From NCBI GenBank assembly GCA_947502975.1, contig CANNBV010000003.1:372001-436000 (forward strand): a DNA stretch of 64,000 nt, read 5' to 3'. A model generated the notes under the pieces. It ran no database searches. It saw nothing but the letters and a program-made list of their open reading frames with translations, and was not told the origin of the DNA. Origin of the DNA: an uncultured Flavobacteriaceae bacterium (GTDB lineage: Bacteria; Bacteroidota; Bacteroidia; Flavobacteriales; Flavobacteriaceae). Below, piece after piece: positions 35,448-40,599 of the stretch; position 1 is the first letter of the stretch, and each line of letters starts with the position of its first letter. A program made the translations under genes and the position numbers.

Positions 35448-35473
35448 GGGTAAATATACCCAGTGTTGGGTAT
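35448..35473. promoter_or_regulatory. NarL-like operator cluster upstream of the protease/two-component operon
   Basis: GGGTA-AATA-TACCCAGTGTTGGGTA; core ATACCCA-GTGT-TGGGTAT (35456-35473) is a perfect palindrome; TTTG at 35500-35503. Confidence 0.65.
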
Positions 35474-35531
35474 TTTTTCACATTCACCAAGTCTTCATAT
35501 TTGTAACATCAATTAATTAACCATTACCCTC

Positions 35532-35867
35532 ATGAAAAAATTAGTCTCTCCTATTACCATGTTTTTCTTTGGTATTATCACCTTTGCTGTGATTATGATT
35601 ATTACTCATAAAAAGGAATTAGATTTTCAGGATACCTATTGTTGGTTTTGCAGAGTACTAATAGCCCTAACTTCAGCATCAATATGTATTTCTATTCCTG
35701 GAATGCTCAAACTAGATTATAATACAAAAGGAGATGGGATTAAAACATTTACTGACGCCGATAATAATCCATTAAAAATGTCTCTTTTAGAAAAGGAACC
35801 TACAATTAGTACTTCTGGCGCTATTGCTGTATTTGTTTTGGTGTGTTTGTTTAATCCTTTGGTTTAA
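35532..35867 (+). CDS. Small multi-TM membrane protein, first gene of the protease/two-component operon
   Basis: MFFFGIITFAVIMIITHKK...LIALTSASICISIPGMLKLDY...TISTSGAIAVFVLVCLFNPLV. Confidence 0.7.
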   Translation: MKKLVSPITMFFFGIITFAVIMIITHKKELDFQDTYCWFCRVLIALTSASICISIPGMLKLDYNTKGDGIKTFTDADNNPLKMSLLEKEPTISTSGAIAVFVLVCLFNPLV

Positions 35868-35873
35868 CAAGTT

Positions 35874-37397
35874 ATGACTATTGAGGAAAAAGCTAATAAA
35901 TCATTGGATTTTTTTGCACCAGTTTTTATGCAGCAAAACCTTAACTGTGATTTTATGGCTGTTTTAAATGAAAATAAAGAGGCAGTATTCTTAATTGCTG
36001 TCTATGATAAAAAAAAAGAATTAGATAAAATAGATGAATATCTAATAAGTATAGGCTTAGAAAATGAGGACAAAATATATTATTTAGATCTTAATGAAAA
36101 CTACAATAATACCTCATATTTATATGATTATATATCTTCCAAGGATAATGACAAAGTACAAATAAGAATTATATTCGAAGAATTTTATAATGATTTACCA
36201 AAGAATAAAAAAACCTTAAAAGCCAACCCTTTTCAATTATATGATATAAGAAAAGGGGGGCATGACATTGGCAAAATATCTGATTGTGATAACCGCGGGA
36301 CACTTGGAGCAGTTCTTACTGATGTAAATGACGAGGCATATATAATTACTTGCTATCATTGTGTTGAAACAAAAATAAACGGTAAAGTGAATTCACCTAC
36401 AAACATGACATCTGATGACAATTGCTCAAAAAAAAATATAATAGGAAGTCTATATTGGTACAAATATGAAAGCGTTAATAGTGAATATGATATTGCCTTG
36501 ATAAAAGTTAATGATAAAAAAAGAGTTGATAGTGGAGTAATTAAATTTGATTTAGCAGATAATATTGGGGATAAACCTATTTTGGGTGATGATATAATGT
36601 TTTTTGGTACTGGTAGTGTACAGATACAGAAAGGTAAAGTAATCAATTGCAACAGTTATAAACGAAGAAATAAAAACTGTAACCATGTCTTAAATAAGTG
36701 TTATATGTCATTAATAAATTCAAAAGAAGGAGATTCAGGCTCTCTGGTAGCAAAAGTTCCTAAAACTAATGAGTTACCAATACCTGTAGGTTTACTCCAC
36801 TCTAAATCAGGACCTTTTTCATTTTTTCAAGATTTGGAAATATTAAAGACTTCTATAAACGACGTTATAGATGGTAACAATGTTATTTTTAATTTTAAAC
36901 AATTTAACTTAAATAAATTAAATATTATGGCTAAAAAAAAGTTTCCTACAGCTCGATTAAGATATGATTTTAAACTAAATAAATACCAACCGGTTTTTTA
37001 TGGGCATATTTTTGGAACAACATTTACAATTGCTGCCAAACTCAATATGATTAAAAAAGATGGTAATACTTATATTAGAGGGTACTTTGTTAGTAAGAAT
37101 ATGGGAGGATTGATTAAATTTTCATTAAGTTCTATAGGTAGTGATGTAAATACAGATGGGCAGAAGTATCAATTAAATGTCAAGATGAATGCCTTTACTA
37201 ATCATGATACAAATATTGGGGAATCTGTAATTAATCTTGGTAAAGATTTTGACCCTGCAAAAAATCACTTTATTAATATAAATATTGCAGATGAAGATAT
37301 AATTAATTTAATACCAAAAAAGCATATTTTTGTTTGTGATAAGAATGAGATTAACGATGATCGCTCATGTGATATCACACCAGTTACTGGTCCTTAA
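35874..37397 (+). CDS. Trypsin-like (S1-fold) serine protease, predicted cytosolic, with uncharacterised N- and C-terminal domains
   Basis: GTLGAVLTDVNDEAYIITCYHCVE (His), SEYDIALIKV (Asp), EGDSGSLVAKV...VGLLHS (Ser); no signal peptide or TM. Confidence 0.75.
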   Translation: MTIEEKANKSLDFFAPVFMQQNLNCDFMAVLNENKEAVFLIAVYDKKKELDKIDEYLISIGLENEDKIYYLDLNENYNNTSYLYDYISSKDNDKVQIRIIFEEFYNDLPKNKKTLKANPFQLYDIRKGGHDIGKISDCDNRGTLGAVLTDVNDEAYIITCYHCVETKINGKVNSPTNMTSDDNCSKKNIIGSLYWYKYESVNSEYDIALIKVNDKKRVDSGVIKFDLADNIGDKPILGDDIMFFGTGSVQIQKGKVINCNSYKRRNKNCNHVLNKCYMSLINSKEGDSGSLVAKVPKTNELPIPVGLLHSKSGPFSFFQDLEILKTSINDVIDGNNVIFNFKQFNLNKLNIMAKKKFPTARLRYDFKLNKYQPVFYGHIFGTTFTIAAKLNMIKKDGNTYIRGYFVSKNMGGLIKFSLSSIGSDVNTDGQKYQLNVKMNAFTNHDTNIGESVINLGKDFDPAKNHFININIADEDIINLIPKKHIFVCDKNEINDDRSCDITPVTGP

Positions 37398-37409
37398 GAA
37401 TAAAACCAT

Positions 37410-39293
37410 ATGATAAAATTAAAATATGTTATAGTTTTATCTCTTTGCTTTTTGGTGCAAATCTCGGCACAAAATAACACTACCATAAAAGCTTTATTAA
37501 ATACTCTAAGGCAATATGAATTAGAGGAATTCAACCCTTCTCTTAACTTGTTTAACCCAAAAGATTCTTTGGGAATAAAGTTGAGAGAAGCTTTTATTTG
37601 GAAGTACAACTATCTAGCCTTTGGAAATTTAGAAAAAAGGAACTTTAAGCCAGAAAAGGATAATTATACTTTAGAAAATGGTCTCCTAAATATTTATTAT
37701 GGTGATTATTTGATATCGAAGGGAACTGAGGAGTCTATTCCTTATAATTACTATCAAAAGTCTCAAGAAATTGCAGACGCAATTAACTCACCAGTTTTGC
37801 TTTGTGAAGCTCTGAAACGAATGACAAGCATCATAAATAAAAATGAAAAAAACCTAGATGACTTAAAGAATCTATTAAAAAAATATAAAGATGCAGCTTA
37901 TGATGATTTTGAAAAAGATTTATCAACTTTGGCTAAAATTAGAGCCTATTCGTACATTGAACAAAAGCCATATATTCAGGAATTAAACCAGGGGTTGTCT
38001 AGTGCTCTTGCTAATGAAAATAAAACTATTATTGCTTCATATTATAAGCTCTTGGGGGTTAAGCACGATGTATATGCTAGATATTTAGAAACCAACAATA
38101 TTTCTAAAAACAATTATTCAAAATCTTTAAATTATTACGATAAGTCTTTAAATATTTGGCAATCCTACAACTACGCTTTTTCTAAAAAAAAACAAATAGG
38201 AATAATTATTAACAAGGGAATAGTTCATTATTTCAGCAACAATCAAAAAGAAGCACAAAAGTATTTAAATAAAGCAAAGGAATCGATTGATTCTACAGAT
38301 TATAATAATAATATCTTATATTATCAATGGTATTCTTTAAGCTTAGCAAAAGAGAAAAAATACAAATCTGCATACAAACATAAATTTGATGAAAACCAAT
38401 TACGGGAAGACAGATATCAAGAAAAATCTGAAATCACAGTCGCAGAAATTAATACTAAATATGAAACTGAAAAAAAAGAAAAACAATTATTAATCGAACA
38501 GCAACAAAAAAAACAAAATAAAAATATAGCTATTGGACTTGGAATAAGTCTATTATTTGGTAGTATTATAGCTCTTCTACTATTTAAAAACACCCGCAAA
38601 AAACAACGTTTAGCAGAACAAGCCAAAGCATTAGAAAGTCAAAAACTAGCCACTGTTCTGAAGGAACAAGAATTGGTTAGTATAGATGCAATGATAGAGG
38701 GCCAAGAAAAAGAACGCCAACGTATTGCCAATGATTTACATGATGACTTAGGCGGATTGATGGCTACAGTAAAATTACATTTTAATGCACTGAAGGAAAA
38801 ACAAACGCCTGACTTGTTTGATAAAACCACTACCCTTTTAGATGAAGCGTATCACAAAATACGTTCTATTGCACACACTAAAAACTCTGGTGTTATAGCC
38901 AAACAAGGACTACTTATCGCTTTACAAAATATGGCCGATAAAATCTCAACATCTAATAAAATTAGTGTTGATGTTATAGATCATGGTTTAGAAAATAGAC
39001 TTGAAAATAGTTTAGAACTTACTATTTTTAGAATCGTTCAAGAATTGATTACAAACGTAATTAAACATGCCGAAGCTACTGAAGCAGTTATTCATCTTAC
39101 CAATCATGACGATATACTTAACATAATGATTGAAGATAATGGCAAAGGTTTCAATCCAAATCAAATTACCACAAAAAACAAAGGTATGGGGCTCAGCAGT
39201 ATTGATAAACGCGTAGAGCATCTTAATGGTAAAATGACCATAGAGTCAGAACAAGGATCAGGCACAACAATAATAATAGATATTCCCACATGA
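37410..39293 (+). CDS. TPR-containing sensor histidine kinase (HisKA_3/NarX-LiaS type)
   Basis: Signal peptide, helical-repeat region, TM (NIAIGLGISLLFGSIIALLLF), EKERQRIANDLHDDLGGLMATVKLHF, NVIKHAEAT, MIEDNGKGF, GMGLSSIDKRVE. Confidence 0.93.
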   Translation: MIKLKYVIVLSLCFLVQISAQNNTTIKALLNTLRQYELEEFNPSLNLFNPKDSLGIKLREAFIWKYNYLAFGNLEKRNFKPEKDNYTLENGLLNIYYGDYLISKGTEESIPYNYYQKSQEIADAINSPVLLCEALKRMTSIINKNEKNLDDLKNLLKKYKDAAYDDFEKDLSTLAKIRAYSYIEQKPYIQELNQGLSSALANENKTIIASYYKLLGVKHDVYARYLETNNISKNNYSKSLNYYDKSLNIWQSYNYAFSKKKQIGIIINKGIVHYFSNNQKEAQKYLNKAKESIDSTDYNNNILYYQWYSLSLAKEKKYKSAYKHKFDENQLREDRYQEKSEITVAEINTKYETEKKEKQLLIEQQQKKQNKNIAIGLGISLLFGSIIALLLFKNTRKKQRLAEQAKALESQKLATVLKEQELVSIDAMIEGQEKERQRIANDLHDDLGGLMATVKLHFNALKEKQTPDLFDKTTTLLDEAYHKIRSIAHTKNSGVIAKQGLLIALQNMADKISTSNKISVDVIDHGLENRLENSLELTIFRIVQELITNVIKHAEATEAVIHLTNHDDILNIMIEDNGKGFNPNQITTKNKGMGLSSIDKRVEHLNGKMTIESEQGSGTTIIIDIPT

Positions 39294-39913
39294 TACGATT
39301 AGCTATTGCAGAAGATCATCAATCACTTATTGATGGTATAAAACTACTCTTAGATTATGAAGACGGGATCTCTATTGTTGGTACTGCAAATGATGGCGAA
39401 GCACTATTGGAAATTGTGGAGCGTAAACAACCCAATGTCATTCTTATGGATATAAGAATGCCCAAATTAAATGGCATTGAAGCCACAAAAGAAATTAAGA
39501 AAAAGTTTCCTCATACAAAAGTACTAGCTTTTACAATGTTTGATCAAGTTGAAGCTATTCAACAAATGTTAGATGCTGGTGCATCTGGCTATATATTAAA
39601 AAACTCTGCATTAAAAGAAGTCCATGAAGCCATTTTAGCAGTTTATAAAGGGGAAACATACTTCGACGCTAACATAAATACCAACATATTACATTCAAAA
39701 AGTTCTAATAAATCTAAAGGGCTTTTAACTAAGCGGCAAATAGAAATTCTAGAGCTGATTGGTCAAGGAAAAACCTCTAGAGAAATTGCAGATATATTGT
39801 TTATAGGGATTCACACTGTAGATACGCACAGAAAGAATATGGCTAGAATACTTGGTTTACAAGGTAAAGGAGAGTTAATGCGTTATGCCTTAGAAAAGAA
39901 ATATAAGTTTTAA
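39290..39913 (+). CDS. NarL/FixJ-family response regulator
   Basis: ATGA overlap with kinase; LAIAEDHQSLIDGIKLLL, VILMDIRMPKLNGIEAT, LTKRQIEILELIGQGKTSREIADILFIGIHTVDTHRKN. Confidence 0.96.
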   Translation: MIRLAIAEDHQSLIDGIKLLLDYEDGISIVGTANDGEALLEIVERKQPNVILMDIRMPKLNGIEATKEIKKKFPHTKVLAFTMFDQVEAIQQMLDAGASGYILKNSALKEVHEAILAVYKGETYFDANINTNILHSKSSNKSKGLLTKRQIEILELIGQGKTSREIADILFIGIHTVDTHRKNMARILGLQGKGELMRYALEKKYKF

Positions 39914-39916
39914 TAT

Positions 39917-39934
39917 TTACCCAATATCGGGTAT
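39917..39934. promoter_or_regulatory. NarL-like operator upstream of the LuxR-HTH gene
   Basis: TTACCCA-ATAT-CGGGTAT followed by TTACCC; TTTG at 39961-39964, identical spacing to the 35456-35473 site. Confidence 0.6.
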
Positions 39935-39986
39935 TACCCTTTTGTGTTTTTTCATTGAATTTTGTTATTTAAACATACCCAAATCA

Positions 39987-40379
39987 ATGAACGCCCACAA
40001 AGAAATCATAACAACTATAAACAACCTAAAGTGTAATAACAAAACACTTTCGAAAGATGGCATAATAAAAGTTTTAAAAGCAACAAAATCTATAACGAAT
40101 CATAAAGATAAAATAGATGCAATAATTCATTTTTTTATTACATCTGAAAAAGTTAAAATCTATAAAAACAAACCACTTACAAGAAGAGAAATACAAGTTT
40201 TAATGTTAATTGGAAATGGAGAAAGTTCATTATGCATTGCAAATACCTTAAATTTAAGTGTCCATACAATTGAAACCCATAGAAAAAATATATGTAAAAA
40301 ATTACAATTAAAAGGTAATGGCAAACTGCTTCAATTTGCTATTCTTTATAATTTAAAAACATGCTCTTTAAAAACATGA
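39987..40379 (+). CDS. Small LuxR-type HTH protein without receiver domain
   Basis: LTRREIQVLMLIGNGESSLCIANTLNLSVHTIETHRKNICKKLQLKGNGKLLQFA; ATG 39987 preferred to track TTG 39942. Confidence 0.85.
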   Translation: MNAHKEIITTINNLKCNNKTLSKDGIIKVLKATKSITNHKDKIDAIIHFFITSEKVKIYKNKPLTRREIQVLMLIGNGESSLCIANTLNLSVHTIETHRKNICKKLQLKGNGKLLQFAILYNLKTCSLKT

Positions 40380-40495: not shown

Positions 40496-40582
40496 ATGAA
40501 GATATTACTAATAATTAGCTTACTCATTGTTGTAAACTTAATACTATTAGCTTTTAGTGTTAATAAAAAAACAGAACCTTAA
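40496..40582 (+). CDS. Putative 28-aa single-pass membrane peptide
   Basis: MKILLIISLLIVVNLILLAFSVNKKTEP*; too short for the track; stop codon lies in a strong terminator. Confidence 0.5.
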   Translation: MKILLIISLLIVVNLILLAFSVNKKTEP

Positions 40583-40599
40583 TTAAGGTTCTGTTTTTT
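40565..40599. terminator. Bidirectional terminator
   Basis: AAAAAACAGAACCTTAATTAAGGTTCTGTTTTTT. Confidence 0.9.

Follow-up and report, generated by a model that had tools for sequence, protein, structure and literature searches.

A two-component locus of Flavobacteriaceae with a conserved kinase-regulator core and a putative exchangeable recognition cassette

Introduction

What does a trypsin-like protease without export signals do in one operon with a sensor kinase? The question is raised by a locus in a 64,000-nucleotide stretch of DNA from an uncultured marine Flavobacteriaceae bacterium (GenBank contig CANNBV010000003.1; this whole stretch is called the window). Five open reading frames (ORFs) lie there in one tight array and encode a protein with three transmembrane segments (3-TM protein), an S1 protease, a histidine kinase (HK) with tetratricopeptide repeats (TPR), a NarL-type response regulator (RR) and a LuxR protein. 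We compared the locus with its orthologues at about 80 loci in Flavobacteriaceae.

The reading that we favour, with a probability of roughly one half, is that of a two-component system which controls its own expression and has an exchangeable recognition cassette, with a small protein as cognate partner of the sensor. Sequence analysis backs the anatomy of the locus, the exchange of a block of genes, the matching of sensors with small proteins, the distribution and geometry of the operator, and the occurrence of four protease clans. The features of the window locus are as follows.

35456-35473, no strand: palindrome ATACCC-N6-GGGTAT in front of the operon and predicted to be its RR operator, with 26 nt to the TTTG (-7) at 35500-35503
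35532-35867, forward strand: 111-amino acid (aa) 3-TM membrane protein with C-terminal end AVFVLVCLFNPLV, associated with the cassette (hydropathy; family confined to the locus)
35874-36296, forward strand: N-terminal region of the S1 protein, residues 1-141 (alignment with other S1 members; structure model poor here)
36297-36926, forward strand: S1 (chymotrypsin-fold) protease domain with triad H162/D206/S288 (Pfam Trypsin, E 1.9e-6; S1 homologues; fold matches)
36927-37397, forward strand: fused type-A small all-beta protein, residues 352-507 (type-A profile; strand order in both models)
37410-38489, forward strand: HK residues 1-360, hypervariable, with a signal peptide and a TPR sensor predicted to be periplasmic
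38523-38585, forward strand: HK transmembrane segment, about residues 372-392, near the conservation switch
38622-39293, forward strand: HK kinase core, HisKA_3 and HATPase_c (Pfam; 80-90% identity in the genus)
39290-39913, forward strand: NarL-type RR (Pfam receiver and GerE; 81-93% identity in the genus)
39917-39934, no strand: second RR palindrome, TTACCC-N6-GGGTAT, 26 nt before TTTG at 39961-39964
39987-40379, forward strand: receiver-less LuxR/GerE protein of 130 aa, predicted RR target (Pfam GerE alone)

Results

Anatomy of the locus

The five ORFs and their tight packing had been described in an earlier note made from this DNA alone, and both were found as described: the spacers between the first three genes measure 6 nt (35868-35873) and 12 nt (37398-37409), while HK and RR share an ATGA overlap (39290-39293). 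Pfam placed Trypsin at protease residues 153-290 (E 1.9e-6), HisKA_3 and HATPase_c in the kinase, a receiver and GerE in the RR, and GerE only in the LuxR protein. The adjoining of a HisKA_3 and HATPase_c kinase to a receiver and GerE regulator is that of a two-component system. The ATG at 39987 (130 aa) is the most likely start of the LuxR ORF, because the predicted promoter -7 element (39961-39964) lies downstream of the TTG at 39942. Homologues of the LuxR protein come after the RR at several loci (for example L088, L162, L174, L188 and L209). As read from the sequence, the anatomy given here is almost certain.

A fixed core and a variable sensor

With the RR as query, the orthologue was found as a single copy in each of 58 out of 251 family genomes. 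A scan of named genomes added 19 orthologous loci, all from Flavobacteriaceae, and the named loci closest to that of the window belong to Psychroserpens, Lacinutrix and Winogradskyella. In members of the genus the pair occupies the same chromosomal slot, with a 128-aa MazG-like gene, a CcoQ-like gene and a branched-chain aminotransferase gene as neighbours, and the genes ahead of the pair differ completely. Identity within the genus was 81-93% for the RR, 80-90% for the kinase core and 89-94% for the MazG-like neighbour; it was 23-38% for the HK sensor and near random for the small protein. The switch in conservation is abrupt and falls at the HK transmembrane segment.

An N-terminal hydrophobic segment was present in the HK at 53 of 55 loci and a transmembrane segment ahead of the kinase at all 55, which places the TPR sensor in the periplasm. 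Such a predicted periplasmic sensor agrees with the proposal of the earlier note that the kinase senses a periplasmic or envelope cue. Two loci (L165 and L092) carry two tandem kinases, which suggests a duplicated receptor half. In genome G006 the module is present a second time, unlinked (L039:5231-11905); there a type-A small protein, HK and RR are accompanied by two proteins with caspase domains and by an 8xMP membrane protein (Pfam PF24838).

Sensor type follows the type of the small protein

A small protein of 140-280 aa is encoded at nearly all loci. Four types were distinguished, with 30 loci used for A, 14 for B, 6 for C and 6 for D, and some of the proteins remain unclassified. For the statistics we used 55 non-redundant loci and divided the HK sequences at fixed lengths; L093 was left out because its HK runs into masked sequence. 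After correction for the kinase core, sensor similarity tracked the type of the small protein (partial r 0.38, permutation p 3e-4). In 52 of 55 cases the best-matching sensor came from a locus with the same small-protein type, against 36 of 55 for the best-matching core and a random expectation of 20.4.

The permutation accounts for phylogeny incompletely, and tree tests were therefore added. The sensor data rejected a genus trio (L034, L035 and L036) as a clade (p-AU 7e-100), and a clade of type C was rejected by the kinase-core data (p 0.001), in which one long branch is present. Two changes of small-protein type were counted on the sensor tree versus six on the core tree. These patterns are best explained by recombination of a cassette, the sensor following, as far as the sequences indicate, the type of the small protein rather than the species. 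Sensor and small protein are probably functional partners.

Such an arrangement could also arise without any link between cargo and sensor, if the slot ahead of the conserved HK-RR pair were a hotspot for hitch-hiking genes and the sensor diverged by ordinary positive selection. These genomes hold many pairs of TPR-HK and NarL-type regulator, and the cargo is highly variable. A mere insertion hotspot does not explain the matching of sensors with small proteins, however, nor do the tree tests fit it, and small proteins occur at nearly all loci, have tails in common and stand beside different protease clans in one slot. We consider this explanation very improbable.

The small proteins have short, conserved C-terminal tails, a possible site of contact. 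In type B a G[NAS]I[IL]VG-like tail was present in 12 of 14 proteins, with a background of 4 in 719, and the motif was shared by part of types C (2/6) and D (3/5); as the motifs were derived from the same proteins that were counted, these numbers are descriptive and not a test. Residues 145-193 of the type-A model are of low confidence and, judged from the model, probably disordered. TPR domains bind C-terminal peptides, and by this analogy it is plausible that the tail of the small protein docks on the TPR sensor.

Several of the small proteins (type C and part of type D) are lipoproteins. They would face the sensor, and together with the covariation of sensor and small protein this fits an adaptor rather than a ligand: like the accessory of a three-component system, a periplasmic or membrane-associated small protein would present the sensor with an external cue, and its own level would be controlled by the protease. 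Types A and B, however, have no export signal, and we regard the adaptor as rather improbable.

A palindrome shared by operon and predicted regulon

The sequence TACCCRNNNNYGGGTA occurred three times in the 4.5-Mb genome, once ahead of the operon, once ahead of the LuxR gene and once at C3:290543, and the reversed control did not occur. Among members of the genus the palindrome was found in all five with the operon and in none of the seven without it. With at most one mismatch it lies upstream of most orthologous operons, often also of the gene after the RR, about 26 nt from TTTG; in the window both distances are exactly 26 nt. In 37 genomes we counted 68 exact sites against 7 for the control. 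NarL sites are 7-2-7 inverted repeats (PMC7419079). The palindrome fits this layout and that of an operator, its binding being predicted from sequence. It is very likely that the RR acts there. Unlinked sites mostly precede genes for secreted proteins, lipoproteins or outer-membrane proteins, including a subtilisin and a matrixin-like protease. From the placement of the sites we infer positive autoregulation and a small, species-specific regulon.

The protease is fused to the small protein

The 507-aa protein of the window is a fusion of an S1 protease (residues 1-351) and a small all-beta protein (residues 352-507) that has its own gene in relatives. There, an S1 gene of 320-470 aa is followed, usually after a few bases, by the small-protein gene. 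The type-A small protein of the window begins at the internal Met352 (MAKKKFPTARLRYDF), where relatives start the separate gene. On residues 352-507 the type-A hidden Markov model (HMM) scored 19.9 bits, versus 10.3 for the best of 1000 shuffles, and the order of strands agrees between the two low-confidence models, of the full protease and of a type-A small protein.

The triad H162, D206 and S288 (GDSGS) is kept in related S1 proteins, with the exception of L087, which has Glu at the Asp position. With His, Asp and Ser in the correct order and the fold of the family, the protein is predicted from its sequence to be an active S1 (PA clan) protease. In our own reading of the alignment, Ser or Asn stands at the position of trypsin Asp189, and the enzyme may therefore differ from trypsin in specificity. 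By hydropathy the protease has neither signal peptide nor transmembrane segment (maximum KD19 0.98), and the intact triad and lack of export signals reported in the earlier note were borne out by alignment and hydropathy. The note had recognised neither terminus. Its unfamiliar C-terminal domain of about 160 aa is the fused small protein; the N-terminal region is common to other S1 members of these operons, with a motif, Y[IVA]A...E[IV]G (found by eye), and is much diverged in the window.

Among PDB folds the S1 core matched streptogrisin (2sfa) and rice NAL1 best, and relatives gave weak Pfam matches to Nal1_C. The likeness to these two is in protease fold and domain only, with no context in common. 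In the AlphaFold model of the full protease the S1 core is usable, the remainder is of low confidence and the N-terminal region is poor. In a fold search with the AlphaFold model of a type-A small protein, E was 0.66 at best. No phage record matched the protease, and the idea of a phage origin was dropped.

The protease is optional and interchangeable

A close search for homologues of the S1 protease gave none in 60 relatives and one weak partial match in 399 genomes of the phylum. The initial impression of an orphan was dropped once HK and RR were used to trace the loci. The slot directly before the small gene held an S1 protease at 15 loci (mostly type B), a papain-like protease at 6 (all type A), a caspase at one (L200) and a subtilisin at another (L198); at L039 caspases lie downstream instead. 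Most other loci had no protease, and none was found in the slot at loci of types C and D. The unit that stays constant is small protein, sensor HK and RR, in that order. Since four unrelated clans replace one another, proteolysis itself appears to matter when a protease is present, which does not in turn reveal the substrate. Processing of the small protein is a tentative but serious possibility.

The neighbourhood of the protease is conserved: every S1 gene of this type in the surveyed operons directly precedes the small gene and HK or, in the window, is fused to the small gene. This supports the view of the earlier note that the protease belongs to one signalling module, for which no match to a named defence or protease system was found. 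As the protease is optional and swappable among loci, it is not supported that releasing or using it is the essence of the module.

The 3-TM protein of 111 aa has three hydrophobic segments by hydropathy. Its family (AVFVLVYLFNP) occurred in 9 of 201 family genomes and all copies were at this locus. The likeness drawn in the note to membrane components of conflict and stress systems was thus not confirmed within this family. In one of the nine (L257:8472-8861) the membrane protein stands alone in the slot, a relict after loss of the rest of the operon.

The protease clans also raise the possibility of a threat-sensing defence module, in which the sensor would detect envelope attack by phage or competitor, expression of the operon would rise through the RR, and the cytosolic protease would act as effector together with its small partner, the diversity being that of an arms race. 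Peptidases of the trypsin-like, caspase, papain-like and subtilisin kinds are found repeatedly as effectors of predicted conflict systems (PMC7159879), and such peptidases also activate gated nucleases (PMC12799240). The proteases and the type A and B small proteins are predicted to be cytosolic, and one relative has two caspases and an 8xMP protein downstream. Against this, PADLOC gave no match for protease, HK or membrane protein, and the locus has a fixed chromosomal slot with one orthologue per genome and a core that behaves vertically, unlike mobile defence islands. It lacks a nuclease or NTPase, many loci are without any protease, the unlinked targets are mainly secreted or envelope proteins, and the sensor swaps jointly with the small protein. 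Defence therefore seems unlikely. Matches of the LuxR protein to PADLOC CARF3 models covered the helix-turn-helix part only and were disregarded.

Discussion

Comparison with known systems

The locus shares with ComQXPA of Bacillus the order processing protein, precursor, receptor kinase and regulator, and the same stretch varies. The ComQXPA regulator is of the NarL class. Isolates with ComQXPA are polymorphic in comQ, in comX and in the 5' part of comP (PMC6334282). The present locus behaves alike, with polymorphic precursor, processing enzyme and kinase sensor next to a conserved kinase core and regulator. It is not a member of ComQXPA, as Pfam scans of the window proteins and of the cargo of relatives gave no ComQ isoprenyl transferase. 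Here proteases take the processing slot, the 'precursor' has 140-280 aa in contrast to the short ComX, the TPR sensor is predicted to be periplasmic, the host is Gram-negative, precursor and processing enzyme are non-homologous, and signalling between cells is conjectural.

Specificity groups with co-varying precursor, processing enzyme and receptor are likewise found in agr of Staphylococcus, which differs in having AgrB/AgrD and another kinase family. In RRNPP proteins a TPR domain is the peptide receptor, but these are cytosolic and not kinases. NarX/NarL and NarQ/NarP of E. coli have a HisKA_3 kinase, a NarL-type regulator and a 16-bp 7-2-7-like inverted repeat near the promoter, as here; the present locus has a TPR sensor in place of the nitrate sensor and a tiny autoregulated regulon. 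The conflict systems (PMC7159879) and nuclease-protease pairs (Science 2025, PMC12799240) also have interchangeable peptidase clans beside a partner and possible proteolytic activation. They are centred on vWA-MoxR, STAND, NucA or MBL nucleases, unlike this locus, and no histidine kinase is reported among the vWA-associated effectors of trypsin, caspase and subtilisin conflict systems (eLife 2020, PMC7159879). With regard to VMAP/vWA-MoxR, STAND and NucA systems, no vWA, MoxR, STAND NTPase, nuclease or Trypco domain was found in the window operon or the scanned cargo; nor was an MBL-type nuclease gene, as in a gated nuclease-protease pair, found beside the protease. The literature searched held no description of the locus, and since its coverage was incomplete this is no proof of novelty.

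A proposed swappable recognition cassette

In the favoured reading of a two-component system with a swappable cassette, the fixed half would consist of the HK kinase core, the RR and the palindromic operator, and the window would hold one allele. The half swapped as a block would consist of the small protein and the predicted periplasmic TPR sensor of the HK, with the 3-TM protein and the protease as optional members. The small protein, or a piece freed by the neighbouring protease, would be the cognate ligand or modulator of the TPR sensor, and its binding, perhaps via the conserved disordered C-terminal tail, would set kinase activity. Phosphorylated RR would then bind ATACCC-N6-GGGTAT and switch on its own operon, the target next to it (in the window the LuxR protein) and a small number of unlinked genes for envelope or secreted proteins. 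In the window, where protease and small protein are fused, processing could be intramolecular. The small protein might reach the sensor by release on lysis or by export with the 3-TM protein, or the link might be wholly intracellular. Binding of the RR to its site, the partnership of small protein and sensor, processing by the protease and a role in cell-cell signalling (self-recognition) are the steps that we infer.

Several observations weigh against this reading. With a sensor predicted to lie in the periplasm, the absence of signal peptides from all proteases and from the type A and B small proteins means that direct contact would call for some other means of export or for cell lysis. At many loci the operon contains no protease. 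For the sensor of the window even the best matches are weak (0.06), and the evidence of covariation therefore comes from the relatives. One locus (L159) combines a type-B small protein with a type-C-like sensor and is possibly a recent recombinant. The type-A tail is looser and contains Cys (19 of 30, background 29 in 719, again a descriptive count), and both structure models are of low confidence, with mean pLDDT of 46.5 and 56.3. The locus L159 also carries an S1 protease and the membrane protein.

Whether the partnership extends between cells is doubtful. Somewhat more doubtful still is the full form of this idea, a polymorphic self-recognition system of Flavobacteriaceae independent of ComQXPA and agr, in which the folded small protein or a C-terminal tail released by the protease would be the specific signal, the periplasmic TPR kinase its matched reader and the four clans interchangeable processing enzymes, with whole cassettes exchanged among species through recombination at the HK membrane segment. 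As far as we have found, a ComQXPA-like layout has not previously been described in this bacterial group, and to our knowledge few if any Bacteroidota counterparts of the Bacillus pherotypes are known. If the idea is right, species-specific signalling alleles like those pherotypes exist in a large group of marine and aquatic bacteria. It would then become testable how receptor kinases exchange specificity yet keep their output, and why unrelated proteases substitute for one another in one operon position. The conserved operator is a ready reporter, and the approximately 80 natural alleles are specificity variants at hand.

Further operator sites and flanking features

The third operator of the genome (C3:290543; L048:6545-9650) precedes an unannotated cluster in a second slot, beside gcvT. 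The cluster encodes a protein of 157 aa, a 137-aa lipoprotein, a protein of 576 aa without Pfam match and a short KYIPSEIVAAY membrane-like ORF. In the gcvT-side slot of a sister genome (L070), other cargo lies under the same operator. Elsewhere, two small proteins encoded behind the operator (L213:2783-3298, reverse strand; L218:3603-4076, forward strand) have glycine-rich hydrophobic C-terminal regions, and neither has a signal peptide or a Pfam match. In the window, a 17-bp perfect inverted repeat (40566-40599) lies between the LuxR gene and a downstream peptidase gene and overlaps the end of a 28-aa hydrophobic ORF (40496-40582). It is probably a bidirectional terminator.

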